Origin: Opitutales bacterium
Lineage (GTDB): Bacteria > Verrucomicrobiota > Verrucomicrobiia > Opitutales > Intestinicryptomonadaceae
Assembly: GCA_015061945.1 (NCBI GenBank)
Contig: SUVP01000001.1
Coordinates: forward strand, 124,001-188,000
Direction of reading: 5' to 3'
DNA length: 64,000 nt
Positions 7,666 to 48,041 of the stretch are shown piece after piece; the stretch's first letter is position 1, and each line of letters opens with the position of its first letter. The notes under the pieces were generated by a model. That model saw nothing but the letters and a program-made list of their open reading frames with translations, was not told the origin of the DNA and searched no databases. Position numbers and translations under genes: made by a program.

Positions 7666-7695
7666 AAAAAAAAGACCGCAAATTGCGGTCTTTTT
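7666..7695. terminator. Bidirectional terminator by the prfB remnant
   Basis: A GACCGCA/TGCGGTC stem is flanked by A-rich and T-rich runs. The intact prfB is also followed by an A5-GACCG...CGGTC-T4 hairpin, so this terminator may have been copied together with the prfB remnant next to it. Confidence 0.65.
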
Positions 7696-7718: not shown

Positions 7719-7853
7719 TTATTCTTCGTCTAAATAATTTTTGTTGCGGGTTGTGGGTCCTCCAGCTCGGAGCCATGCGTTAACAAACAAATCGATATCG
7801 CCGTCGATTTCAACAGAAAACCCACGACGCTTGATGTCATCGCTATTTTCAAT
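7719..7853 (-). pseudogene. Internally deleted prfB (RF2) remnant
   Basis: Read on the minus strand this is an uninterrupted 44-codon frame plus stop, made of three pieces of release factor 2. These are the first codons (ending DDIKRR), a central piece (RRGFSVEID), and the complete last 31 residues (from GDIDLFV to NKNYLDEE). The joins fall where intact prfB has matching short sequences: GAGCGTCG at both sides of the first join and a GACG/GATATC pattern at the second. The position of the start codon reads ATT. The GGQ catalytic domain is missing, so it cannot work as a release factor. Most differences from the intact gene (12144-13272) in the aligned pieces are synonymous. Confidence 0.8.
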
Positions 7854-7916
7854 ATCTACCCCACGATTCTATTTCTTTTAAGATTTCAAACGTATATTTT
7901 ATATATAGTAGTGAAT

Positions 7917-7975: not shown

Positions 7976-10900
7976 TTAGTTTAGCTTACCAACTACTACT
8001 TTACGTTGGTTTTTATTATCCTTTGTTTCTAATTTATATATACCTTCTTCAAATTCAAACAATACTAACTCACAATTATATGTTGTGTCAGCATTCTTAC
8101 CTTTGATAGTTATTGTGGAAATTCCATTTTTATAATTTTTATAAGAATATGTACAATCTTGAACTGAAGCAGTTGAGAGAATTAGGTCACATTTCTTTGT
8201 AGTTTTAAAGATAACCTTTACTCCATTAAACTCAATTTCATTTGCAACCAAGTCCTTTGATTGTGCAGGAATTGAATCATCTTCAAAGTCAGCATATTCC
8301 ATACTATCTACACGGAATTTCAAATCGACGCCCTTTTTCTGATCCTTCAATAAAGCTACCCAAGTAGTTGTTTGACTATCATATTCAAATGAACCTTTCA
8401 TTGAATACGATACACCATTGTATTTAAACGCCATCGTTAATGTAGCTTCTGTTGGAGAAGTGCGTTTGATAGAATATGTTGAGTTTTCGAGAACGACACC
8501 ATTGTCTAAACAGATTCTAAAATTCTTCTTATCTACAAAAACTGCATCAAAGAAGCCATTAATACCGTCGAAGTCAAAATAGCCTGTTGCTAAGCAACCT
8601 GATAATGTAGCTTTTACAGGACAATCCATTGCAATAAGCTCAAATGTCCCACCAAGAATATCGCTACCACCATTAGAAATATAACAACGATAATATCCTG
8701 AATCTGAGGTATCCAACGGTTTCAATATGTAGCTCTTTTTGGTTGCCTTTGCAATATTTTCCCAAGTTACACCATCCGAAGAATACTGCCATTGATATCT
8801 AGGCTTATCTCCTGATGCAAGAACCGACATTTCAAATGGGTATTCAGCAAATACGTATACCGATGTTCCATTTGTTGAATCAATACCTTCAATAGAATTT
8901 GAAGTCGATGTTATATCAGTTAATTCTTCTCCACTTCGTTTAAATGAATATCCATTAAACGCAACGCAATCTTTCAATGTTACTTTAAGAGTTTTCGAAA
9001 CAACTTTCAACCCTATCATTGTTCCAGAATCTTCACTCCAAGCAAGACAACGACATTGGACTGACGTTGAAGTCTTTCCTTTTGGCATTGTCAACGACGA
9101 CGTATCAAACGCATTCAAGATATTACTTGTTTCACCTGCAATATTTACCCAATTCTTTCCATCTAATGAATATTGCCATTGATACTTCGTGTTATATCCT
9201 TTTGCTTCTACTGAAGCAGAAACAAAATCACCTTTATAAATTGTTGTCTTTGAAACAAGCTGTGCTTTTGTAATTTTTGCACCTGCTCTTACTGTTAAGG
9301 TAGCTATCCTAGAAACCTCGGGATTCTTTGGATTACCTTTATTACTTACCAAACAACGATATTGATTGCCAGATAGCTTTACATCTGGTTTAGAAATTAC
9401 GAGTGTTTGTTTTGCCCCAACATTCTTCCAAATAACTCCGTCCGTAGAAACTTGCCATTGGAATTTCAAGTTTTTGTCATCACTGGGTGTAGCTTCTACT
9501 GTAAATGTAGCTTTTTCCGTATTAGAACATGTACAATCCGCAGGAAGATTTACATTAGCAATACCTGCTTTAGCCAATTTAACAGGCTTGTATACATTAG
9601 ACACGACATCTTCAAGCGATTGAAGATATGTTGAATTAACAACTAATCTGTATTCTTTATTGAAGTCATCTGCATCAACGCAATCAGCTATAAACTTCAC
9701 AGAATTGGCAGTTTTATTTTCTGTTTTTGATATATTTTTCCAAGCACTATCATTTTCATTTTGATATTTATACTGCCATTGATATGTCAAATTTTTTACG
9801 CCTTTTGCCTTTACCTGTAAGCATATTGTAATTCTGCTATCAACCTTCGCCACCCCGTCTACTATATCTGTAGGATCATAAACTGCCAATTTTGTAGCAC
9901 GATTGTTTTCCGTTATTTCGATAGTTGGTTTGTCAACTACCGCAACTTTTACTACGTTTGATTCGATAGTTTTATTATGACGCTTATCCGTAAGAACACA
10001 CTTATAACGATAAAGTGAATGTTCTTTAGTTACGTTTGAAATTTTCAATGGTTCTATTGGTTTAAAGACACCGCCATTATATTCATCATCATCCAATACG
10101 TCAGTATTAAATGGAGCCAATTCACCCTTTGTATTTGGAATAGGCAACCATTTTTTTCCATCATACATATACCATTCGTATTCTATTTGAGATTCAAGTT
10201 TTGTATCATAATCAACAGATATCTCAACTGCTCCACCAACAAAAGTTCTAACTGTAGTAGAAGGGTTTTTTGAAAATTTAACTGTAGAATATTCAACTGC
10301 GCCAATCGTTGATTTTACGATAGAACCATCGACGCTAACTGGACGAACAACACCTCTTGCATCTGTTAATGCTTCTTCCGACAAAACACCTGCTTTTATT
10401 GCAGAACTTTTAGCACCGAGTGCACAAGTTAAAACATTTCCACCATTGTCAGCCAAAGGTAATAATTTTGGATCCTTTGTTATAATATATTCATGAGAAT
10501 ACAATCTTTCTGGTTCACGTCCATTTTCAGATGGTTGTTCAAGAGAAGGATCTGTATAAATACCTTCCATATAAAGAAGTTTACCTATTTCACGACGTTG
10601 TTTTATCACACAAGTATGTATTATTTGAGAATTACTTTCATTGTAAACTTCACCTGCACGTTTTGTCGCAATATTACCCCAAAGGATACTATTTACGATA
10701 ACAGACCCTGCATTATCAAAAATCGCACCTCCTCTCATTGCTTTGTTTTGTGTAAACGTACAATTTCTCAATATCATAGAAGAATCTGGTTCTTCTTGAG
10801 TACCAGATGATCCACTATTATCAAGAATTCCATCATTTGGATCTGAAAAATCCGGATTATACACTGTCTCTCCGTTGCAGATTGCCCCACCATTATATGA

Positions 10901-11704
10901 AGCAACATTATTAACAAATGTACAATTGAATAATTCTAAATGATTATGATGAACCTCAGCACTAAACTCATCATCATTAGTTGGTGTTTTTAAATCATAA
11001 AGTTCATCGTGATTATAAATCGCACCACCCGAGAATATAGAAGTATTATTTCTAAATGTACAATTTGATATTGTTAAATAAAAACTTCTAACATACAATG
11101 CACCACCACCTGCAAGTGCATTTGATGAATGACCATTTTGAATTATCAAAGTGCCGAGCATTGCACGATCTTCCATCGGCTTGCCTTTTCCTTGTGCAAC
11201 AAAGACAGCATACTTTCCTTCACCATCAATATACACAAAGTTTCCGCATTTTCGCGTCGCTCTTCCTATTGGAGTAAGATACTTCCCTGTACATTCTCCA
11301 TTTACATATTCCTGCCTTTTGTTTTCATTGGCAGTCCACTCCGTTTCATCTCCAGCAAAACCGCCAAACACACCAACATTTTTCTTCAAAAAGATAGTAG
11401 AACCATGTTTATATGTACCTGCGGCAATCCACACTTCAGCAAAACCATCATCACCTGCTTTACTTGAAGCTGTATTAATTGCTTTTTGAATATCACCGCA
11501 AGCTTTTGCCCAAGTGCTACCATCACCTTGGCCACCTGGCTTAACATAGACAACACCTTTAAGCTGCACTCCCGTTTCCACAGGAACGCCAGGCTCTGGA
11601 TTGTACCATTGTGTAACAGGATAGAGACTTGGAGATGTGCTTCCAGCAAAAAGCGACGCAGTTAAAAACGTAACAAGAGGAAGAATTATTTTTTTCATTT
11701 TCAT
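7976..11704 (-). CDS. Large secreted beta-helix and Ig-repeat protein
   Basis: This 1242-residue exported protein has a Sec signal (residues about 1-21, ending LFAGS). Residues about 50-470 form a right-handed beta-helix of the polymorphic outer-membrane/choice-of-anchor type: VYVKPGGQGDGSTW followed by repeated GGGALYV, SGGAIYN, NGGAICN and RGGAIFD turns with NCTF rungs. Residues about 480-1010 hold five Ig-like repeats, each with the signature YQWQYSxDGxxWxNI (or a close variant). The last 220 residues are a distinct beta-rich domain. There is no PEP-CTERM or LPXTG tail, so surface attachment is unclear. The likely role is adhesion or glycan binding; no hydrolase active site is identifiable. 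It has its own terminator. Confidence 0.8.
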   Translation of the reverse strand: MKMKKIILPLVTFLTASLFAGSTSPSLYPVTQWYNPEPGVPVETGVQLKGVVYVKPGGQGDGSTWAKACGDIQKAINTASSKAGDDGFAEVWIAAGTYKHGSTIFLKKNVGVFGGFAGDETEWTANENKRQEYVNGECTGKYLTPIGRATRKCGNFVYIDGEGKYAVFVAQGKGKPMEDRAMLGTLIIQNGHSSNALAGGGALYVRSFYLTISNCTFRNNTSIFSGGAIYNHDELYDLKTPTNDDEFSAEVHHNHLELFNCTFVNNVASYNGGAICNGETVYNPDFSDPNDGILDNSGSSGTQEEPDSSMILRNCTFTQNKAMRGGAIFDNAGSVIVNSILWGNIATKRAGEVYNESNSQIIHTCVIKQRREIGKLLYMEGIYTDPSLEQPSENGREPERLYSHEYIITKDPKLLPLADNGGNVLTCALGAKSSAIKAGVLSEEALTDARGVVRPVSVDGSIVKSTIGAVEYSTVKFSKNPSTTVRTFVGGAVEISVDYDTKLESQIEYEWYMYDGKKWLPIPNTKGELAPFNTDVLDDDEYNGGVFKPIEPLKISNVTKEHSLYRYKCVLTDKRHNKTIESNVVKVAVVDKPTIEITENNRATKLAVYDPTDIVDGVAKVDSRITICLQVKAKGVKNLTYQWQYKYQNENDSAWKNISKTENKTANSVKFIADCVDADDFNKEYRLVVNSTYLQSLEDVVSNVYKPVKLAKAGIANVNLPADCTCSNTEKATFTVEATPSDDKNLKFQWQVSTDGVIWKNVGAKQTLVISKPDVKLSGNQYRCLVSNKGNPKNPEVSRIATLTVRAGAKITKAQLVSKTTIYKGDFVSASVEAKGYNTKYQWQYSLDGKNWVNIAGETSNILNAFDTSSLTMPKGKTSTSVQCRCLAWSEDSGTMIGLKVVSKTLKVTLKDCVAFNGYSFKRSGEELTDITSTSNSIEGIDSTNGTSVYVFAEYPFEMSVLASGDKPRYQWQYSSDGVTWENIAKATKKSYILKPLDTSDSGYYRCYISNGGSDILGGTFELIAMDCPVKATLSGCLATGYFDFDGINGFFDAVFVDKKNFRICLDNGVVLENSTYSIKRTSPTEATLTMAFKYNGVSYSMKGSFEYDSQTTTWVALLKDQKKGVDLKFRVDSMEYADFEDDSIPAQSKDLVANEIEFNGVKVIFKTTKKCDLILSTASVQDCTYSYKNYKNGISTITIKGKNADTTYNCELVLFEFEEGIYKLETKDNKNQRKVVVGKLN

Positions 11705-12015: not shown

Positions 12016-12052
12016 AAAAAGACCGACAGAATCGTTTTTCCGCCGGTCTTTT
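12016..12052 (-). terminator. Terminator after prfB
   Basis: An AAAAAGACCG/CGGTCTTTT hairpin lies about 90 bases downstream of the prfB stop codon. Confidence 0.6.
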
Positions 12053-12143: not shown

Positions 12144-13272
12144 CTACTCTTCGTCTAAATAATTTTTGTTGCGGGTTGTGGGTCCTCCTGCTCGCAACCA
12201 TGCGTTGACAAACAAATCGATATCGCCGTCCATCACTGCTTGCAAGTTCCCTGTTTCTGCTCCCGTACGCAAATCTTTCACCATTTGGTAGGGTTGGAAA
12301 ACGTAGCTTCGTATCTGATTTCCCCACGAGATTTCACCTTTCTCTCCGTAGAATTTGTCCATTTCGCTTCGCTTTTGGTCGAGCAATTTTTCGTACAATC
12401 TACTTTTGAGAATTTTCATCGCACTCGCCTTATTCTTAAATTGCGAGCGTTCATTTTGGCACGCAACTACTATACCTGTCGGCAAGTGTGTGATTCGCAC
12501 CGCACTCTCGGTCTTATTGACGTGTTGCCCACCTTTACCACTCGCACGATATGTATCAATTTTCAACTCTTCTTCCTTGATATCCATGTCGATATCATCG
12601 TCGATTTCAGCGATAACATCAACCGACGCAAATGACGTATGCCTACGCTTATTCGCATCAAACGGACTAATTCGCACAAGGCGATGCACTCCACGTTCGG
12701 CTTTTGAATATCCGTAAGCGTTTGCCCCGACAATTCTGAATGTTACACGAGAAACTCCTGCCTCTTCGCCATCTTGGATATCGTCGATTTCGACAGAAAA
12801 CCCTCGACGCTCCGCCCAACGCGAGTACATTCTAAAAAGCATTTCAGCCCAGTCGCAACTTTCTGTTCCACCTGCGCCAGCGTGGATTGTCATAATCGCA
12901 TTCGACGCATCGTGCGGTCCACTCAAGAATGATTCGATTTCAATCTTATCTAAATATGCGTGCAAGGCGTTTGTTTCCGACGCAAGCTCTGCCGACAACA
13001 TATCGTCAGGCTCCGATTCTTCCGCAAGTTCAAAAAGTGCTTTGAGATCGTCGAGACGCTTTTTCATCTCGTTCTGTGGTGCGACCAACGCTTTCAAGCG
13101 AGTCAATTCCGACACAGTCTTTTGGGCTTCGGCTTGATTATCCCAAAAATCTGCACGAGTCATTTCTTCTTCGAGCTGTCCAATCTGTGCAACTTTTGCT
13201 GGGACGTCAAAGAAACCTCCATAAATATCCTGCGCGACGCTCGATGTCATCGGCAATCGCCTTAATTTCCAT
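12144..13272 (-). CDS. prfB: Peptide chain release factor 2, with programmed +1 frameshift
   Basis: RF2 releases finished proteins at UGA and UAA codons. The gene starts at ATG 13272 in a short leader frame of 21 codons ([13 protein letters not shown]...) that ends at an in-frame TGA (13209-13207). The shift site reads GGAGG-TTT-CTT-TGA-C, with the same 3-base spacing between the internal Shine-Dalgarno and the slippery CTT as in E. coli. After a +1 shift, translation continues as [10 protein letters not shown] to the end, for about 375 residues. The GGQ motif ([10 protein letters not shown]) and a codon-recognition region are present. A frame beginning upstream at 13277 looks continuous but carries a false N-terminus. 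A truncated copy lies at 7719-7853. Confidence 0.95.
13206..13220 (-). promoter_or_regulatory. RF2 autoregulatory frameshift site
   Basis: The elements in order on the minus strand are GGAGG (internal Shine-Dalgarno), TTT, CTT (slippery codon), TGA and C. Low RF2 lets ribosomes pause at UGA and slip +1, restoring RF2 synthesis. This mechanism is well established for prfB. Confidence 0.92.
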
Positions 13273-13419
13273 ATCAATTATCATCGAAAAATATATTTCT
13301 AAAATAGTTCGATTAAATCAACACAAAAAAGCTTGAAAAGAAAAAACTAATTGAAATACTTATTCGTAAATCTATTTGCACTCTTGTGCAGACAAAAAAA
13401 TTTTAACAAAAAAATAATT

Positions 13420-29913: not shown

Positions 29914-32073
29914 ATGAGAAAAATATTATCACTTGTATCAATACTGTGTGCAACATCTGCACTGTTTGCGATTGAAAATAAAACATTTGAACGTAGCGTT
30001 GATTCAAATTGGGAACACGCAAGCAAACAATACTCACCCCCAATCCTCGCAAATGGCGATATCGGGTTGCTTATCGACTATCGCAACTGTCAATTTCACG
30101 ATGTATCGTCGTACAAATACATCAAAAGTATTAGCGAAAAGGTTTACTCGCCGTCAATTTATCGACAAGGTCGCAGACTCGATAACAAAAAGCTCGCATG
30201 CTTCGGACGCTTTGAAGAATCGGTAGATTTTGAAAATTCTCCTGACGCAAAACCTGAAAGCTGGTCGCAACATCTCGATATTTTCAACGCTATATCGGAA
30301 ACAAAAAATACATACAACAAAGGCAAGACGATTATTGACTCATCCGCCTTTGTGTCAGCCGATATGCCGATAATTGCAATCCAAAAAAGATTTTCTGGCG
30401 ATACTCCGAAGTCGTACACATTTGAATATTATTTTTGCGAAGAAAGAAAGTACGACGAACAGCCGATGCATATGCGTGGAAAAATCGCAAACGGCGAAAT
30501 TTCTTACAAGCTCGAAGGGACTCGCACAAAAACAAAAGGTAAAATTGCTCTATTTTGCGATGACAAAAATGCGAAAATTATCGAAGAAGAAAACTCGATA
30601 AAAATCACAATAGATAAACCTAAAGGCGACATCGCATTCTTCGTGGCAATAGTCGATAATTTCAAGAAGAACGACTACAACGCAGAGCTTGCAAAAATCA
30701 AAAAGATAATGGATGAATCGCCATGGCAAACGCTTCTCGACTCACACAAAAAACAATGGCAAAAATTTTATGGCGACTTCGGTATTACACTTGAAGACAA
30801 AAAAGTTGAATCAACATACTACACTGCCATTTATAATCTCAAATGCTGGTCGACACAATGGTCAATCCCAGTGGGTATTTTAAGAACGCACTGGAATGGC
30901 TCATTCTTTGGCTTCACATTTTTTGGTCCAGCACTGTCGGCATCGGGACACTTGCCCGAAGTCAAAAAACTCGGCAATTTTTGGAATAGCATAATCCCTG
31001 CGGCAAAAGCACGAGCAGGCAGAAAAGATAGTCAGGTCGGCATTCGCTACAACTGGCAATCGCTCGAAAACGGAGCTGAAGGAACGACAAGAGAAGGTCA
31101 ATGGCTCGACCACATCTTGCACTTGGGCAACATACCCATTGAATGTTATTCATATTATCAATATACAGAAGATAAAGAATATTTGCGTACAAAAGCATAT
31201 CCTGTCATAAGAGGTTGTGCTGAATTTTTCGTAAAACAAGCAGTCTATGAACTCAAAGACGGACGCACTGTCATCGGCAAATTTTGCGATTTGGAACGTT
31301 TGCCATCGGCACTCGAAAACGCATCGCTCACAACATCTGCGGCGATATCTACACTTTTAATTGCGTCTGAATCTGCCGAAATTTTGGGCGTTGATGCTGA
31401 CGACGCAAAGAATTGGCGAAAGATTGCCGATGCCTTAAAAAAACATCTGCCCAGAGATAACGAAAAATATATCCCATATCCAAACGCCGACCAAAAGAGT
31501 GTCGGGGTTCTCGGCTCGACAATCCCATACGGAATTTTGGGCAAAGAAAGCGATTTGCAAGTGAAGGCAATCCACGACTTTGAGAAGAACGGATTGGCAT
31601 TCGGCAATATGTACAAAGTCGGCTCAAGAATCTGCAGTTGGTACGCATCGTGGCTATCGTGTGCGATGTCGAGAATTGAAGATGGCGAAGGTGCCGAAAG
31701 AAACATTCAACGTGCGATTGCATCCGTCGGCAAATTCGCCGAAATCTTTGAAATCAACGAACCAGCATTTATGTCTGTGCCATGGTGTTCATCTCCGCAA
31801 GGCACATACATACAATCTGTAAACGAGATGTTCATACAATGCAAAGGCGATACAATCAAGATTATCCCAGCGATTACAAAGAAGTGGAAAAATTATTCTT
31901 TCAAACTCCGTGCGTACGATAGCATTATCGTTGAATGCAAATGCGTAGACGGCAAGCCGACAATAAAACTCACCGCTGAAAATAATCACTCCGAACGCGA
32001 AAAGACAATTATTGTGGCAGGTGGTACACCTCAGAAAATCAAGCTTTCAAAGGGAGAAACAAAAACCTTGTAA
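29914..32073 (+). CDS. Secreted GH65/GH95-like glycosidase, copy 1
   Basis: A 719-residue exported protein with a Sec signal ending LFA. The N-terminal half (about 25-270) is a beta-sandwich (SPPILANGDIGLLIDY, KITIDKPKGDIAFF), and the second half is an alpha-helical (alpha/alpha)6-barrel. Barrel motifs are WSIPVGILRTHWNG, followed by FTFFGPAL, and GKFCDLERL, followed by ENASLTTSAA. By comparison with GH65 enzymes (PDE...VDNNAYTN) the Glu in CDLERL is the probable general acid. The C-terminus is a small beta domain. The substrate is unknown; the layout fits an exo-acting hydrolase or phosphorylase. It is the first of two tandem paralogues, 719 residues each. Confidence 0.75.
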   Translation: MRKILSLVSILCATSALFAIENKTFERSVDSNWEHASKQYSPPILANGDIGLLIDYRNCQFHDVSSYKYIKSISEKVYSPSIYRQGRRLDNKKLACFGRFEESVDFENSPDAKPESWSQHLDIFNAISETKNTYNKGKTIIDSSAFVSADMPIIAIQKRFSGDTPKSYTFEYYFCEERKYDEQPMHMRGKIANGEISYKLEGTRTKTKGKIALFCDDKNAKIIEEENSIKITIDKPKGDIAFFVAIVDNFKKNDYNAELAKIKKIMDESPWQTLLDSHKKQWQKFYGDFGITLEDKKVESTYYTAIYNLKCWSTQWSIPVGILRTHWNGSFFGFTFFGPALSASGHLPEVKKLGNFWNSIIPAAKARAGRKDSQVGIRYNWQSLENGAEGTTREGQWLDHILHLGNIPIECYSYYQYTEDKEYLRTKAYPVIRGCAEFFVKQAVYELKDGRTVIGKFCDLERLPSALENASLTTSAAISTLLIASESAEILGVDADDAKNWRKIADALKKHLPRDNEKYIPYPNADQKSVGVLGSTIPYGILGKESDLQVKAIHDFEKNGLAFGNMYKVGSRICSWYASWLSCAMSRIEDGEGAERNIQRAIASVGKFAEIFEINEPAFMSVPWCSSPQGTYIQSVNEMFIQCKGDTIKIIPAITKKWKNYSFKLRAYDSIIVECKCVDGKPTIKLTAENNHSEREKTIIVAGGTPQKIKLSKGETKTL

Positions 32074-32075
32074 GT
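31894..32075 (+). repeat. Converted 3' tract, copy 1
   Basis: This 182-base stretch ending just past the stop codon matches 34117-34298 with 9 differences counted by eye, all but one synonymous. The rest of the two genes is far more diverged. Confidence 0.8.
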
Positions 32076-32136
32076 TTGCAATCACATAATCTACAAAAAA
32101 AGAATGACTCGTATTTTTTATTAACAGATGAGACAA

Positions 32137-34296
32137 ATGAAAAGAAAGATATCAATAATTCTATCAATATTCTTTGCAATATCTACACTTTGTGCTAATC
32201 AAACAAACAAAGAATTTACTCGCACAGTAGATTCATCTTGGGAACACGCAAAAACACAATATTCACCACCAATTCTCGCAAATGGCGACATCGGACTACT
32301 CATCGACTACCGAAATTGTCAGTTCCAAGAAACTCCATCGTATAAGAATATCAAGTGTACGGGTGGGAAATATTATCCAGCAAATTATCGAGCAGGTCGA
32401 CGTACAGACAGCCATAAGCTTGCTACTTTTGGATATTTTGTCGAAAGCGTAAATCTTGCCGAAGAAAAAAATGTATCGCCTGAAAAATGGTCGCAACATC
32501 TCGATGTTTTCAATGCCACATCTGAAGTATCCAACACTTATAACAATGGTAAAACGACGATAAATTCGACAGCATTTGTATCGGCAAAACACCCTGTTAT
32601 AGCAGTGCAGAAACGATTTTCTGGTGAACCTTTAAAATCGTACACATTTGAATACTTCTTCTCTGATGTTGGCGAAAAACAATCAAAGCCACTGCATATG
32701 ACTTATGAGATTGTTGGCAACGAGATTAAATTCTTTCTCGAAAAAGCACGCAAATCAGTCAACGGAACTATAAAAATTATCTGCGACAACAAAAATGCGA
32801 AATTAGAATCTACAAAAAATTCGATAAAAATTACAATCGATAACCCAAAAAATGATACAGCATTTTTCATTGTGATGGTTGATGATTTTCAGAAGAATAA
32901 ACCAGAAAAACAGCTTGTAAATATAGAAAAAGAAATTAGCAAAGGTTGGTCAAATTTCTTTGCATCACACAAAGCACAATGGAAAAAATTTTATGGCGAT
33001 TTTGGAGTATGGCTTGAAGACAAAACAATTGAAGCAACTTATTACACATCGCTTTACAATCTAAAATGTTGGTCGAGTCGTTGGTCGATTCCCGTCGGAT
33101 TTCTCCCGATGCATTGGGATGGCAAATATTTTGGCTTCACATTTTTTAACCCTGCCCTCTGTGCAACAAACAAGATACAAGAAGCAAATAAAATTGCTCG
33201 TTTCTGGAATAGTTTTCCAAAAGTTGTAAAATTCCGTGCAGGTCGTCCACAAAGTCAAACAGGCAGAAGATATTCGTGGCTGACTCTTGAAGATGGCAAC
33301 GAAGGCACAACTCTGCAAGGTCGCTGGCTCGACCACATCTTACATATGGGTAGCATCTCGCTCGAAGCAATGACTTGCTATCGCTATACCGAAGATAAAG
33401 AACTCCTCGCAAAAACAATCTACCCAATCTTAAAAGGTTGTGCAGAATTTTACGAACATCACGCAGTTTATAAATACGAAAGTGGCAGAACTGTAATAGG
33501 CAAATGTTGCGATTTGGAACGCCTACACTCGCCAGTCGAAAACGCAATGCTCACGACATCGGCAGCGATATGCACGTTTGAATCTGCAAGCGAAGCTTCA
33601 AAGATTTTGGGCGTCGATGATGAAATGGCTGTGCGTTGGAAACAACTTGCAAACGACCTCAGAAAATATCTACCTAAAGACAACAAAAAATACATTGCCT
33701 ATGCCGACGCAAAAGAAATGTCTGTTGGTGTACTCGGTGGAATAATACCATATGAAGCCGTTGACGAAAACGACAAATTCCAACGCAACGCAATTTACGA
33801 CTTTGAAAAAAATGGTCTGCACGTTGGTAATATGTACAAGATTGGTACTCGCATATGTTCGTGGTATGCAGCGTGGCTCTCGTGTGCAATGGCTCGCATA
33901 GGAGACGGCGAAGGTGCAAAAAGAAATCTCAAAAGCTCGACAGACTCAATCGGCAAATTCGCAGAAATCTTTGAAATCAACGAACCAAATGTAATGTCAA
34001 TCCCGTGGTGTTCATCGCCTCAAGGCACATATGTACAAGCACTTAATGAGATGTTTGTGCAATGCAAAGGCGACGCAATTTTAATTCTGCCTGCTGTTTC
34101 AAAAGAATGGAAAAACTATTCTTTCAAACTCCGTGCATACGATAACATTATCGTTGAATGCAAGTGCGTAGACGGAAAGCCGACAATAAAACTCACCGCT
34201 GAAAATAATCACTCCGAACGTGAAAAGACGATTATTGTGGCAGGTGGAACACCTCAAAAAATCAAGCTTTCAAAGGGAGAAACAAAAACTTTGTAA
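32137..34296 (+). CDS. Secreted GH65/GH95-like glycosidase, copy 2
   Basis: This paralogue of the preceding gene has the same length and domain order: Sec signal ending LCA, N-terminal beta-sandwich, (alpha/alpha)6-barrel, and C-terminal beta domain. The barrel motifs are WSIPVGFLPMHWDG, then FTFFNPAL, and GKCCDLERL, then ENAMLTTSAA, so the proposed general acid is conserved. The two proteins differ most in the N-terminal domain (around residues 190-240), which may tune substrate choice. The second of two in-frame ATGs was taken as the start because it gives a normal signal peptide. A strong terminator follows. Confidence 0.75.
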   Translation: MKRKISIILSIFFAISTLCANQTNKEFTRTVDSSWEHAKTQYSPPILANGDIGLLIDYRNCQFQETPSYKNIKCTGGKYYPANYRAGRRTDSHKLATFGYFVESVNLAEEKNVSPEKWSQHLDVFNATSEVSNTYNNGKTTINSTAFVSAKHPVIAVQKRFSGEPLKSYTFEYFFSDVGEKQSKPLHMTYEIVGNEIKFFLEKARKSVNGTIKIICDNKNAKLESTKNSIKITIDNPKNDTAFFIVMVDDFQKNKPEKQLVNIEKEISKGWSNFFASHKAQWKKFYGDFGVWLEDKTIEATYYTSLYNLKCWSSRWSIPVGFLPMHWDGKYFGFTFFNPALCATNKIQEANKIARFWNSFPKVVKFRAGRPQSQTGRRYSWLTLEDGNEGTTLQGRWLDHILHMGSISLEAMTCYRYTEDKELLAKTIYPILKGCAEFYEHHAVYKYESGRTVIGKCCDLERLHSPVENAMLTTSAAICTFESASEASKILGVDDEMAVRWKQLANDLRKYLPKDNKKYIAYADAKEMSVGVLGGIIPYEAVDENDKFQRNAIYDFEKNGLHVGNMYKIGTRICSWYAAWLSCAMARIGDGEGAKRNLKSSTDSIGKFAEIFEINEPNVMSIPWCSSPQGTYVQALNEMFVQCKGDAILILPAVSKEWKNYSFKLRAYDNIIVECKCVDGKPTIKLTAENNHSEREKTIIVAGGTPQKIKLSKGETKTL

Positions 34297-40835: not shown

Positions 40836-40865
40836 TTGACCAACTACTATAAAATAAAATATTAT
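40836..40865 (+). promoter_or_regulatory. Sigma70-like promoter of the DUF4838 cluster
   Basis: TTGACC, 18 bases, then TATTAT. The transcript would start within a base or two of the ATG at 40872, so a leaderless or near-leaderless mRNA is possible. Confidence 0.5.
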
Positions 40866-40871
40866 ATCTAT

Positions 40872-43235
40872 ATGAAAAAGTTTATATCAATTTGGGTCAA
40901 GACGCTATTTGCACTTTCATCAACTTTCTATGCCTATGCAGATATTAAGTTAACAGATAATGGCAACGCATATCTGCCGATTGTCATTCCCGACAATCCT
41001 ACAAAAGTAGAAGAATATTCTGCAAAAGAATTGAAAGAACATCTCGACAAAATGTCGGGAGCAAACTTCCCTATTATCAATTTCTCTGCGTCAGATTATG
41101 TAAAGCGTGCAATCTATGTTGGCGATTCTCCCAAAGCACGCGAACTTCTCGATAATCTCGATCCCAAGACACTCGATTTTGATACAACAATTATAAAGAC
41201 ATCGGGCGAAAACCTCGTGTTATTAGGGCATCCCAAACGTGGCACACTTTTTTCGGTAATATCTCTTTTAGAAGATGAGTTGGGAGTGAGATGGTGGACA
41301 TCGACTGAATCATTCATCCCACAAAAATCGACCATTACCGTCAAAGAACAAGATACTCGATACACACCAGCACTAAAACATAGACGCCTTGACTACTATG
41401 AATGGAAGACAAATAAATTTCCAGCCAGACTCCGTGCCGGCGACCTCGTCTTCCCAGACAAAAAGCTTCAACGTCAAACAAACAATATCGACGCAATCGG
41501 CTACCACTCTTTTTATAGAGTTTTATCGCCTAAAAAATATTTCGACGCTCACCCCGAGTGGTTCTCGATGAATAGCAAGGGCAAACGCTATCATAAAAAA
41601 GGTACACAATTAGCTCAACTTTGTTTGACAAATGAAGAAATGACAAAAGAGTTCACAAAAAATGTCCTTGAGAGAATCAGAAAAACACCACATGCGACAT
41701 TTGCCCATATCTCGCAAAACGATTATTATAATTACTGCGAATGTAAAAAATGTACTGACTTTGTAAACGCTCACGGCAAAGAGCAATCGGCACTTATGGT
41801 ACACTTTGTAAATAAAATTGCCGAAGAAGTTGAAAAAGAATTCCCGAACATAAAGGTGGTAACTTTCGCATATCAATACACTCGCCACGCACCACAAAAC
41901 ATTAAGCCACGCCACAATGTCTGGATTGAACTCTGCTCTATTGAATGCGACTTCGCCCACCCTCTCGCAACCGACACAGATTACGGCTTCACAAAAGATA
42001 TTCAAGATTGGAGCAAGCTCACAAAAAATATGACAATCTGGAATTATGTTACAAACTATAACAACCTAATGTACCCATTCCCGAACTTGCACTGTATCGG
42101 ACAAGATATCAATTTCTTTGTTAAAAATAACGCTGTCGGACTTTTTGAACAAGCCGATAACTATTGTTCTATCGGCGATTTTGTCAGACTTCGTCATTGG
42201 GTAATGGCTCATCTTATGTGGAATCCGTCGCTCGACACCAAAAAGCTCGTGCGAGAATTCCTCTACGGCTATTACACTGAAGAAGTAGGCAAATATCTCG
42301 AAGAATATCTTTGGACACTCAACGACAGAGCTTATAATTTAAAGTATTTCCAAGGTTGCTATGTTGTAGATTGGTTGCTTTGGATGGATATCGATACATT
42401 TATTAAGGCATCAAAAGCAATGGAAAAAGCTTTCGACACTGCAATAGAACTCGAGAAAAAAGATCCAAAAAAATACGCTGGCTTAACATTTAAATTGCGT
42501 CGCGACAGAACATCGTACGACTGGTTTGTGCTTATGAATTATGCCGACTTGCAACTAATGGCAGAAAAACAAGGCAAAAGCTTGTCGCACTTGCGACCAA
42601 TCGAATACACTGCAAGCAAAATTGCAAAAACATTAAAAGACCACAAAGTAAAAGGTTCTACACCTCCAACGTATCCGGAAGATTGCCCAAAAGTTTATTC
42701 TGCACACATCACGCACGCATTGAAAAATCAGCTCAAATATTTGAAAAATGCAAAGCGAGAATTCCCTTCTAAAGATTTAATCGGGCAATATAAAGAAGGT
42801 ACCTTTGTTGAAATCCAAAACGAACGCTTTGTTCAATCAGTATGGCGAGACACTCGTGTGCCTTGCGAATATGTCGCCGACAAACACGCCTCCGACGGCT
42901 TTGCATCCGTAAAATATAGCTATAACCAAAATGTGATGAAAGTTCCGTTCCGCTTCGACTTGCTCAACCTGAAGTCAAAATCTGGCAATACAAAAGACGG
43001 CAGAAAATGGCAAATTTGGGGCTATGTAAGCACAAAAGGCAAAACTGCATCAGTAAAAACAAACTATTCTAAGTGGAAAGAAATCAAAACTGGCGACGAA
43101 TATCAACGCATAGATTTTGGAACTATAACTATGTCGAACGAAGAATTGACACGCAAAAATGCTTCGAAATTGCTTCATATTTATTACAAAAAAGGGAAAG
43201 CCCTTGTAGACCGTATAGTAGTTGAGGAATTGTAA
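40872..43235 (+). CDS. DUF4838 secreted protein, copy 1
   Basis: A 787-residue exported protein with a Sec signal ending AYA. The N-terminal domain (about 25-160; LPIVIPDNPTKVEEYSAKELKEHLDK) resembles the N-terminal domain of GH67 alpha-glucuronidases. The central DUF4838 barrel contains YHSFYRVLSPKKYF, then LTNEEMTKEF, HISQNDYYNYCECKKC and ELCSIECDFAHP. SQND and the Cys motif CxCxxC are shared by all three copies and could form the active or metal site. The C-terminal ~200 residues are a beta-sandwich, possibly carbohydrate-binding. An alpha-glucuronidase or related activity is inferred, not shown. It is first of three tandem paralogues. Confidence 0.8.
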   Translation: MKKFISIWVKTLFALSSTFYAYADIKLTDNGNAYLPIVIPDNPTKVEEYSAKELKEHLDKMSGANFPIINFSASDYVKRAIYVGDSPKARELLDNLDPKTLDFDTTIIKTSGENLVLLGHPKRGTLFSVISLLEDELGVRWWTSTESFIPQKSTITVKEQDTRYTPALKHRRLDYYEWKTNKFPARLRAGDLVFPDKKLQRQTNNIDAIGYHSFYRVLSPKKYFDAHPEWFSMNSKGKRYHKKGTQLAQLCLTNEEMTKEFTKNVLERIRKTPHATFAHISQNDYYNYCECKKCTDFVNAHGKEQSALMVHFVNKIAEEVEKEFPNIKVVTFAYQYTRHAPQNIKPRHNVWIELCSIECDFAHPLATDTDYGFTKDIQDWSKLTKNMTIWNYVTNYNNLMYPFPNLHCIGQDINFFVKNNAVGLFEQADNYCSIGDFVRLRHWVMAHLMWNPSLDTKKLVREFLYGYYTEEVGKYLEEYLWTLNDRAYNLKYFQGCYVVDWLLWMDIDTFIKASKAMEKAFDTAIELEKKDPKKYAGLTFKLRRDRTSYDWFVLMNYADLQLMAEKQGKSLSHLRPIEYTASKIAKTLKDHKVKGSTPPTYPEDCPKVYSAHITHALKNQLKYLKNAKREFPSKDLIGQYKEGTFVEIQNERFVQSVWRDTRVPCEYVADKHASDGFASVKYSYNQNVMKVPFRFDLLNLKSKSGNTKDGRKWQIWGYVSTKGKTASVKTNYSKWKEIKTGDEYQRIDFGTITMSNEELTRKNASKLLHIYYKKGKALVDRIVVEEL

Positions 43236-43236
43236 T

Positions 43237-45645
43237 ATGATTAGAAAAATCCTGATTCAAACAATCTGCATATTTGCATTATGCTTATGCGTCGCATGCG
43301 AAAATAAAAAGCATATTGCACTAACACAAAACGGCAACGCACTTATGCCTATCGTCATTGCCGACACTCCGACAAAAGTCGATGAGCATTGTGCAAAAGA
43401 ATTGAAAACGCATCTCGACAAAATATCAGATTGCAATTTTCAGATAATTAAGGAATCGGAGCTATCACAAAATGCAAAGGCGATATTTGTTGGCAACACA
43501 CAGAAATCAAAAGTTGCATTGCCCGATTTTAATCCGCAAAAAGTTCCGTTCGATACAATCAGAATTTTAACAAAAGATGGCTCGCTTTTTATAACGGGTC
43601 ATCACCGACGTGGCACAATATATGCAACCTCTGAATTCCTCGAATCTCTGGGCGTTAGATGGTGGACACCTCAAGAAATGTATTTGCCCAAAAATGCGTC
43701 AATAACACTTAAACATATCGATAAAACATACTCGCCTGCACTTCAATTTAGACAGACAAATTATATCAGCGGAAGTTTTGACGCACTGTTTGCAATGCGT
43801 ATGAAAAACGGACAACTGCAAGGCTCCGACAAACAAATGAATCAGGCTATTGCACAATCACGAGCAGTTCCATACCACTCATTTTACAAGATTTTGCCAC
43901 CTGAAAAATATTTCAAAAAACATCCAGAATGGTTTTCAGAAATTGACGGCAAACGCACTCATCAAAACGCACAACTGTGTTTGACTAACGAAGAGATGAC
44001 AAAAGAGTTCATAAAGGTTGTCCGAGAAAAGCTCGCAAAAATGCCGTATGCACGCTTCGCACATATCTCACAAAATGATTGGCGTAAACCTTGCGATTGC
44101 AAAAAATGTAAGGATTTTGAAGATGCACATGGTGGCGTCCATTCGGCGACAATGGTAAATTTTGCAAATAAAATTGCAGACGCCGTTAAAGAAGATTATC
44201 CCGACTTACGAATCGTTACATTTGCATATCAGTATACAAGAAAAGCCCCACAAAACATCAAGCCACGCAACAATGTTTGGATTGAGCTTTGTACAATCGA
44301 ATGCGACTTTGCCCATTCTCTCGAATCAGATACATACTACTCATTCACGCAAGATATAAAAGATTGGAGCAAGCTCACAAAAAATCTCACAATTTGGAAT
44401 TACACAACTTGCTTTAGCAACTATATCATCCCATATCCGAATATGTACCTTATTGGCGACGACATCAGATTCTTCATCAAAAATGGTGCAATCGGTCTGT
44501 TTGAACAAGGCGACTCATTCTGCAATGTGGGCGACTTTATGCCACTACGCCTCTGGGTAATGTCTAAATTAATGTGGGATCCAACCCTCGACGACAAAAC
44601 TCTTATCGACGAATTTTTGAACGGCTACTACGGAAATGAAATTGCAAAAATTTATTGGGAATATCTCGACACAATAAATAATAGAGCCTCAAGCGTGCAT
44701 TACACTCAAGGTTGCGATTACATCGACACTTTCACATGGATGGATGCAAAAACATACAATAAAGCATCGACCCTAATGGCTAAAGCTTTGCAAACGGCTA
44801 AACGTTTGGAAAAAGAAAATCCTACAAAATACAAAGGTCTTATCCGTAAAGTATGGAAAGATAAAATCACAATCGATTATGTCGGAGTGATGTACCACAC
44901 GCAATTAAAACGTATGGCAGAGCGAGAAGGTATTGAAATAAAATACCCCAAAGATGTTGTCGCTTCAGCACAAGATATTATAAACCGATTCAACAATTTC
45001 AAAACAGAAAGAATCGTACCCTATATGACACGTGAAAAGTTTGAATCAACTTTCCCCGCATTCTTATCTTTCGCAAAAGAACAAAAAAAATATCTGACTG
45101 CAATGCCCAAAGCATCGAGCTCAAACGACCTTCTCAAATATTTTAAAGAAGGCACTTTTGCAGATTTCCAAGAAGATAGAATAGAAATAAGTGGAAATGG
45201 TTGGGCTGGCGGTTGGCTACAAATCCCACCCGAATACGTCAAAGACGAAAATGCGTCAAATGGTTGGTCGGCAAAAAATCACTATTGTAAGCGTTTTGAA
45301 GTTCAACTTCGCGACAATCTTTTGAAACTAAAATCGTCGAGTGGAAACGAAAAAAATAGTACGTTTAAAATTTATGCCTTTATAAAAAACCCCGCAAAAG
45401 ACATTCCCGCTGGCAAATTAACGTGGCTACATTTTAATCCTGTCGGCAAAGAAAATAGACGTGTTCAACGCTTACCAGCTCCGGCAATCCCTCACTCCGA
45501 TAAATATCAAATGATTGAAATTGGCACGTTTGACCACTACGACATCACATCTAATCACAAAGATATGGTATGCCGTCAATTCCTTTTGTACACTGGTAAA
45601 AACTCGCCTATCTTAATCGACAGAATTGTTTTTGTTAGAAATTAA
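43237..45645 (+). CDS. DUF4838 lipoprotein, copy 2
   Basis: This 802-residue paralogue starts one base after the previous stop codon. The start MIRKIL gives a lipoprotein signal (VAC, Cys21). It keeps the family motifs YHSFYKILPPEKYF, HISQNDWRKPCDCKKC and ELCTIECDFAHS. It differs from copy 1 by being lipid-anchored and by having a longer C-terminal part with an insertion near residue 720. Expression from the same transcript as copy 1 is very likely. Confidence 0.8.
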   Translation: MIRKILIQTICIFALCLCVACENKKHIALTQNGNALMPIVIADTPTKVDEHCAKELKTHLDKISDCNFQIIKESELSQNAKAIFVGNTQKSKVALPDFNPQKVPFDTIRILTKDGSLFITGHHRRGTIYATSEFLESLGVRWWTPQEMYLPKNASITLKHIDKTYSPALQFRQTNYISGSFDALFAMRMKNGQLQGSDKQMNQAIAQSRAVPYHSFYKILPPEKYFKKHPEWFSEIDGKRTHQNAQLCLTNEEMTKEFIKVVREKLAKMPYARFAHISQNDWRKPCDCKKCKDFEDAHGGVHSATMVNFANKIADAVKEDYPDLRIVTFAYQYTRKAPQNIKPRNNVWIELCTIECDFAHSLESDTYYSFTQDIKDWSKLTKNLTIWNYTTCFSNYIIPYPNMYLIGDDIRFFIKNGAIGLFEQGDSFCNVGDFMPLRLWVMSKLMWDPTLDDKTLIDEFLNGYYGNEIAKIYWEYLDTINNRASSVHYTQGCDYIDTFTWMDAKTYNKASTLMAKALQTAKRLEKENPTKYKGLIRKVWKDKITIDYVGVMYHTQLKRMAEREGIEIKYPKDVVASAQDIINRFNNFKTERIVPYMTREKFESTFPAFLSFAKEQKKYLTAMPKASSSNDLLKYFKEGTFADFQEDRIEISGNGWAGGWLQIPPEYVKDENASNGWSAKNHYCKRFEVQLRDNLLKLKSSSGNEKNSTFKIYAFIKNPAKDIPAGKLTWLHFNPVGKENRRVQRLPAPAIPHSDKYQMIEIGTFDHYDITSNHKDMVCRQFLLYTGKNSPILIDRIVFVRN

Positions 45646-45650
45646 AATAT

Positions 45651-48041
45651 ATGAAAAGAACACTATTAAGTATCTTCGGATTTTCGATTGTATCGACAAT
45701 CCTCTGTGCATGTACAAAAGAAATTGAGATTGCGAAAGACTCGCAAGCATCGCTGAAAATCGCAATTCCCGACACCCCCACACATTGCGAAAAATACTCT
45801 GCCCAACTACTAAAAAAATATCTCGATAAAATAACAAACGCTAAATTTGAAATTTTGCCTGAATCAAAATTACCACAAAATTCAAAAGCAATATTTATTG
45901 GCGATACAAAAAAATCTCAAAATGCACTTGCAGATTTTAACCCAAAAACTGCACCGTTCGATGCAATTAGAATTAAATCTGACAAAGAAAATATTTACAT
46001 CAAAGGACACGCAAGACGTGGTACACTCTACGCTGTAAGCACATTTCTCGAAGATTGCACAGGCGTAAAAGCGTGGGCAGAAGACGACATCTACGTTCCA
46101 CAAAAAACTTCTCTTAAAATATCGCCAACAGATATTTCGTACGCACCACAACTGACATCTCGTAAAACAGATTACAGAGTCGGGACAAACTGCGAGTTGC
46201 GAGTTCTCCAATACTCAGGCTTCCCTATCCCAGCAGACCTCAAATTGCGAAAAGAAATTGGCGAAAGTTATGCGGTAGGCTACCACTCATTTTACAAAAT
46301 TTTACCACCTAAAAAATATTTCAAAGAACACCCTCAATGGTATTCTTTGATAAATGGGAAACGTACAGATAAAGACGCACAACTCTGTCTGACAAACGAA
46401 GAAATGACAAAAGAGTTCATAAAGATTGTGTGTGAAAAAATCAAAAAAGCCCCTCACGCACGCTTTGCACACATTTCACAAAATGATTGGAACGGAGTTT
46501 GCCAGTGTAAAAAATGTACAGATTTTGTAAATGCTCACGGTGGCGTACAATCGGCTGTATACCTTAATTTTGCGAATAAAATTGCCGAAGCTGTCGAAAA
46601 AATAAACAAAGATATTCGCATAGTAACTTTTGCATATACGTTCACTCGCAAAGCCCCAAAAAACATCAAACCTCGCCATAATGTTTGGATAGAACTCTGC
46701 TCTATCGAATGCGACTTTGCCCACGCATTAGAAACAGACAAAGATTACGGATTCACCCAAGACATTATTGACTGGGGAAAACTAACAAAAAACCTCGTAA
46801 TTTGGGATTATGTAACCAGCTTTAAAGATTACCAAATTCCATTCGCAAACATTCATAATCTCGACGACAACATAAAGTTTTTTGTAAAAAATGGAGCTAT
46901 CGGGATCTTCGAACAAGCCGACCAAAAGAATGTAACGGGCGAATTTGTACGACTTCGCAACTGGTATTTAAACAAGCTTATGTGGAATCCGTCTCTCGAC
47001 GGGGACAAGCTTATCGACGAATTTCTCGCTGGCTATTACTCTCCTGAAGTTGCCCCATTTTTGCGAACATACATAGATACAATCGAAAAACGCGTAAACA
47101 ATGTACAATTCTCGCTTAGTTGCTATTCAACAGATCCACTTAATTGGCTCGACGCAAAAACGTACGCAATACTTTCGGAATCTCTGCATAACGCCTTTCA
47201 ACTTGCCCAAAAGCTCGAGAAAGAAAATCCGCAAAAATACAAGAACTTGTCTCGAAAAATTTGGCGAGACAAACTTCCGCTCGACTACATCGCACTGACA
47301 AAATGGGTTCACTTGGTTGCACTCGCAAAAAAAGAAGGTGTAGAACTAAAGTACCCTCAAGACCTCGTTGCGCTCGCAAATGACATCGTAAAACGTTGGC
47401 AAGAATTTGGAACCGAAAAAATCAATCAACGTGAAACACGCGAAAACTTCTTAAAATTTGCTAATTCGTTTCCTGCTTTTGCAAAGCGTCAAATTGAATT
47501 CTTAAAAAATAATCCCGATTTCACTGAGTCTACAAACATCTCGGGATTTGATAAAAATCAAGCAGTAGAATTTCAGGAAGGAAGAATTGACCAATGCAAT
47601 AGTGCAAAGGCTGTCGCTACGCAACCAGTAAACTATTTTGCAGATAAAAATGCGTCAAACGGTTGGGCTATTTATCTCGACGAAAACTGCGAACGCCTCA
47701 GACGTTTTGAAATAAATTTGCACGACACTCTTGAAAAACTCGAATCTACGACATCCTCAAAAGGAAAACGTAAGTATGATATTTATGTAGATGTGAAAAC
47801 AAAATCACAAAAATCGACAAAAATTATAATGATGCTATTTAGAAAAGGAACGTGGAATATATATAATCAAGGCGAAGGTAAATATATTCCCGACGGCGAC
47901 AAGTATGTGCGTGTACATTGTGGCGAAATTGAGCTTAACCATTCTCGCAAAGATTCAACAAGCTTCCAACTTTGGATAAGACCACTATATACAAAATATT
48001 CCGACCTTCTTCTCGATAGAGTTGTGGTAGTCGCAAAATAA
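45651..48041 (+). CDS. DUF4838 lipoprotein, copy 3
   Basis: The third tandem paralogue has 796 residues, 5 bases after copy 2, with lipobox LCAC (Cys21). The motifs YHSFYKILPPKKYF, HISQNDWNGVCQCKKC and ELCSIECDFAHA are conserved. One marked difference from the others is in the strand around residue 130, where the RWW of copies 1 and 2 (GVRWWT) is replaced by GVKAWAED. A terminator follows. Confidence 0.8.
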   Translation: MKRTLLSIFGFSIVSTILCACTKEIEIAKDSQASLKIAIPDTPTHCEKYSAQLLKKYLDKITNAKFEILPESKLPQNSKAIFIGDTKKSQNALADFNPKTAPFDAIRIKSDKENIYIKGHARRGTLYAVSTFLEDCTGVKAWAEDDIYVPQKTSLKISPTDISYAPQLTSRKTDYRVGTNCELRVLQYSGFPIPADLKLRKEIGESYAVGYHSFYKILPPKKYFKEHPQWYSLINGKRTDKDAQLCLTNEEMTKEFIKIVCEKIKKAPHARFAHISQNDWNGVCQCKKCTDFVNAHGGVQSAVYLNFANKIAEAVEKINKDIRIVTFAYTFTRKAPKNIKPRHNVWIELCSIECDFAHALETDKDYGFTQDIIDWGKLTKNLVIWDYVTSFKDYQIPFANIHNLDDNIKFFVKNGAIGIFEQADQKNVTGEFVRLRNWYLNKLMWNPSLDGDKLIDEFLAGYYSPEVAPFLRTYIDTIEKRVNNVQFSLSCYSTDPLNWLDAKTYAILSESLHNAFQLAQKLEKENPQKYKNLSRKIWRDKLPLDYIALTKWVHLVALAKKEGVELKYPQDLVALANDIVKRWQEFGTEKINQRETRENFLKFANSFPAFAKRQIEFLKNNPDFTESTNISGFDKNQAVEFQEGRIDQCNSAKAVATQPVNYFADKNASNGWAIYLDENCERLRRFEINLHDTLEKLESTTSSKGKRKYDIYVDVKTKSQKSTKIIMMLFRKGTWNIYNQGEGKYIPDGDKYVRVHCGEIELNHSRKDSTSFQLWIRPLYTKYSDLLLDRVVVVAK

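Follow-up and report, generated by a model that had tools for sequence, protein, structure and literature searches.

An intergenic stretch of 135 bases (positions 7719 to 7853, minus strand) in the 64,000 nucleotides of Opitutales DNA analysed here, which we call the window, raises the question of how pieces of prfB, the gene for release factor 2 (RF2), came to stand between two genes as one open frame. This frame has 44 codons, lacks a start codon and ends in TAA. The earlier note on this DNA had described it as three joined RF2 pieces, and BLAST together with alignment bears this out. The three pieces keep the order that they have in prfB and the orientation of the intact gene. Piece C (7719 to 7808, minus strand) holds the C-terminal 28 codons and the stop and matches 12145 to 12233, with 93% identity over 89 nt between 7808-7720 and 12233-12145 (BLAST E 2e-32). 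Piece B (7802 to 7831, minus strand) encodes 10 residues of the PCRF region, with 93% identity over 30 nt between 7831-7802 and 12811-12782 (E 4e-8). At the level of sequence comparison, these E values exclude a chance similarity to prfB. Piece A (7824 to 7859, minus strand) is the N-terminal leader V-D-I-E-N-S-D-D-I-K-R-R from ahead of the frameshift site, recognised by its match to the genome's own prfB and to the leaders of six relatives. It is identical to the 5' end of the own prfB at 17 of 18 nt, and the similarity runs on, interrupted by gaps, as far upstream as GTA-GAT near 7859.

The intact prfB lies at 12144 to 13284 on the minus strand and encodes the PCRF and RF-1 domains. Its start and its +1 frameshift site CTT-TGA-C (TGA at 13209-13207), which is preceded by GGAGG, were placed by alignment with relatives. 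GGAGG followed by CTT-TGA-C is conserved in all relatives that were read except one, genome G001, where the sequence is AAG-TTT-CTG-GAC and the in-frame stop seems to be gone. Gene order marks the intact copy as the resident locus at its ancestral place, since prfB adjoins thioredoxin in all ten genomes of the genus that were examined. A single large gene (7976-11704) occupies the 4.4 kb between the remnant and prfB. It encodes a large secreted protein combining Chlamydia-PMP repeats with Ig-like domains, of which the genome has a paralogue on another contig.

Both joins of the remnant fall on short repeats of prfB, as the earlier note had proposed. The first, at AGCGTCG, corresponds to a jump of about 430 nt in prfB and the second, at GACG, to one of about 555 nt; each keeps the protein frame. 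The first jump removes CTT-TGA-C, which confirms that the programmed frameshift site was bypassed. That both joins are in frame is unremarkable and calls for no selection on the frame, because the longer direct repeats inside prfB tend strongly to be in phase (24/27 of the 8-mers; 435/877 for 5-mers). Selection for an open frame was thus dropped as a cause of the joins. The remnant combines significant collinear similarity to its intact parent with disabling lesions, namely the two deletions and the missing start codon, and its 44-residue translation contains neither the GGQ peptide-release motif nor the stop-codon recognition region. It is most probably a non-functional, untranslatable prfB pseudogene of the ordinary bacterial kind.

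The start of the frame required a correction. The earlier note stated that the remnant has no normal start codon, which holds, and took its ATT as the original start position, which does not. Comparison with the leaders of relatives, which read ATG-ATA/ATT-ATT-GAT, gives ATG-ATA-ATT-GAT-ATG as the ancestral prfB start. The ATG that pairs with the ATT of the remnant in the alignment is thus four codons downstream of the true start, and it is not conserved among the relatives. The remnant has a start codon at neither position, and there is no in-frame ATG, GTG or TTG before piece A.

How far the remnant has diverged from the resident gene, and when, can be read from its codons. In the 36 alignable codons of pieces B and C there are eight base changes in seven codons. 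All eight are synonymous, including the change of the stop from TAG to TAA that had already been pointed out. Under random substitution such a pattern has a probability of about 1.5e-5 in simulation; random changes relative to the local prfB, which would have spoken against the earlier interpretation, are not what we see. The dS between remnant and intact prfB over the same codons is about 0.31. The description of the differences as mostly synonymous is right for pieces B and C and fails for piece A, which shows a 9-nt in-frame loss and amino-acid replacements relative to prfB. Some of its residues are those of relatives: N-S is found in G009, G003 and G015, where the local prfB has A-I, and K is found in G009 and G003, where the local prfB has E. 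Over the first 69 nt of piece C, remnant and intact prfB are equally close to the prfB of seven out of nine relatives; the remnant is closer in G009 (57 vs 55) and further in G012 (45 vs 46). Taken together, the synonymous-only changes, the equal distance to relatives and the leader residues agree with the earlier proposal that coding constraint still held while the sequence diverged and that the shortening came afterwards. Long drift after truncation would not give such a pattern, which suggests that nearly all divergence predates the truncation. The changes in pieces B and C are best read in this way rather than as selection on a present product.

Behind the remnant lies an intrinsic terminator, AAAAAGACCGCAATTTGCGGTCTTTTT (7669 to 7695, minus strand), whose folded stem is shared with the terminator of the intact prfB (12018 to 12051, minus strand; stem AAAGACCG/CGGTCTTT). 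The stem is rare: AAAGACCG..CGGTCTTT occurs at five loci in the 2.5-Mb genome, and within the window only behind the remnant and behind prfB. A whole prfB unit was therefore probably once present at the site of the remnant, and the similarity of the terminators may also be convergence. The flanks resemble those of prfB little. For the 3' spacer the similarity is weak, with 19 of 500 shuffles reaching its score, and for the 5' flank it is weak or missing (160/500).

The earlier note had suggested looking for a full second prfB in relatives, and here its interpretation finds no support. No genome with an RF2 match has a second RF2 gene; each carries one RF2 and prfA. The two RF2 matches of G002 belong to a single gene split at contig ends, and G010 has no match at all. 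In relatives, what the remnant matches is their only prfB, with at most 81-83% identity; the exception is a 24-nt match in G025, which is to the flank of the remnant. Of the 177 genomes of the order, the other 176 lack the junction, which was not found in viral contigs either. DNA searches for a phage or plasmid source gave no match, and the protein search for a phage source returned only distant RF2s. With neither a second prfB nor the junction in any relative, a full second prfB at the remnant locus is what we infer from the sequence of this one genome. The rest of the earlier interpretation stands, namely a prfB remnant, joins at microhomology and coding divergence before truncation.

We conclude, with a probability of about 0.82, that a redundant and slightly divergent second prfB decayed in place by deletions between repeats, having arisen by an old duplication or come in from a closely related strain. 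Some 4 kb beyond the present prfB, in the downstream direction, there would once have been another prfB transcription unit, probably with its terminator. Its origin would be an old duplication or else a strain close to the species boundary, and it would have diverged from the resident allele for as long as coding constraint lasted. Once it was redundant, deletions between short direct repeats of 8 and 4 nt, presumably by slippage, would have removed roughly 430 and 555 nt, and further small losses in the leader together with loss of the start codon would have left the non-functional pseudogene. On the present data, a diverged duplicate and an import from a related strain are indistinguishable.

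A shortened copy could also have arisen in one step, through template switching between repeats of a donor prfB during DNA repair or replication, or during copying of prfB mRNA, and then been inserted. The collinear pieces with their microhomology joins would fit this, as would the lack of any full-length second prfB throughout the genus. However, a dS of 0.31 from the resident prfB would require a divergent donor besides, and the shared terminator stem and the additional small in-frame leader loss suit stepwise decay better, so that we regard patchwork insertion as unlikely. Site-specific integration of an element at the prfB 3' end could leave a duplicated gene end as a scar, and 89 nt of that end are repeated directly 4.4 kb away in the same orientation. 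Such a scar would not account for pieces A and B, which come from the beginning and the middle of prfB, and the intervening Ig/PMP-repeat protein gene comes with no integrase; we have rejected this origin as hardly credible.

Translation of the 44-codon frame, or of an overlapping TTG-started frame of 40 codons (7852-7730), as a functional small gene or as a leader peptide that controls the downstream minus-strand genes together with the terminator is very improbable. The frame is still open with synonymous changes only, and the terminator follows directly, with genes in the same direction behind it. Against this stand the missing start, the loss of the catalytic GGQ motif and the absence of the remnant from all relatives, and divergence before truncation already accounts for the synonymous pattern. 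The remnant lacks the in-frame start and the copies in relatives by which a leader peptide or attenuator would be recognised. No promoter for the remnant scored above chance, and the search for RNA families gave two weak matches far below the gathering threshold, both spanning the terminator. The RNA fold of the remnant has a z of -2.17 with the terminator and is not unusual without it (-0.33). That the remnant has been retained because its RF2 pieces are expressed, as a small RNA or a micro-ORF acting on termination or on downstream genes, is highly improbable.

Within the window we found no other collapsed-gene remnant of this sort. The window does contain tandem repeats of genes. Two glycosidase genes (GH95/GH65-like) at 29914-34296 share 55-81% identity along most of their length, but a 100-nt block close to the 3' end reaches 95%, and their last 60 residues are nearly identical; the block looks like a local gene-conversion tract. 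Three lipoprotein-like DUF4838 genes (PF16126) at 40863-48041 share about 70% identity in a common core.

In decay from a redundant second prfB, the remnant is a clean small example of the collapse of an essential-gene copy, and it suggests that the lineage may once have had a second prfB allele. No selection is needed for a frame to stay open when deletions join in-phase repeats, and a short open frame with synonymous changes only is by itself no proof of a micro-gene. A survey of prokaryotic pseudogenes names disabled native duplications and failed horizontal transfers as their sources (PMC522871). As with those pseudogenes, an intact native gene here has a disabled copy beside it; unlike them, the remnant has collapsed to three in-frame pieces and its source cannot be assigned. 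Compared with prfB and its programmed +1 frameshift, every piece of the remnant derives from that gene, whereas the frameshift site, the GGQ motif, the recognition regions and the start codon are gone.
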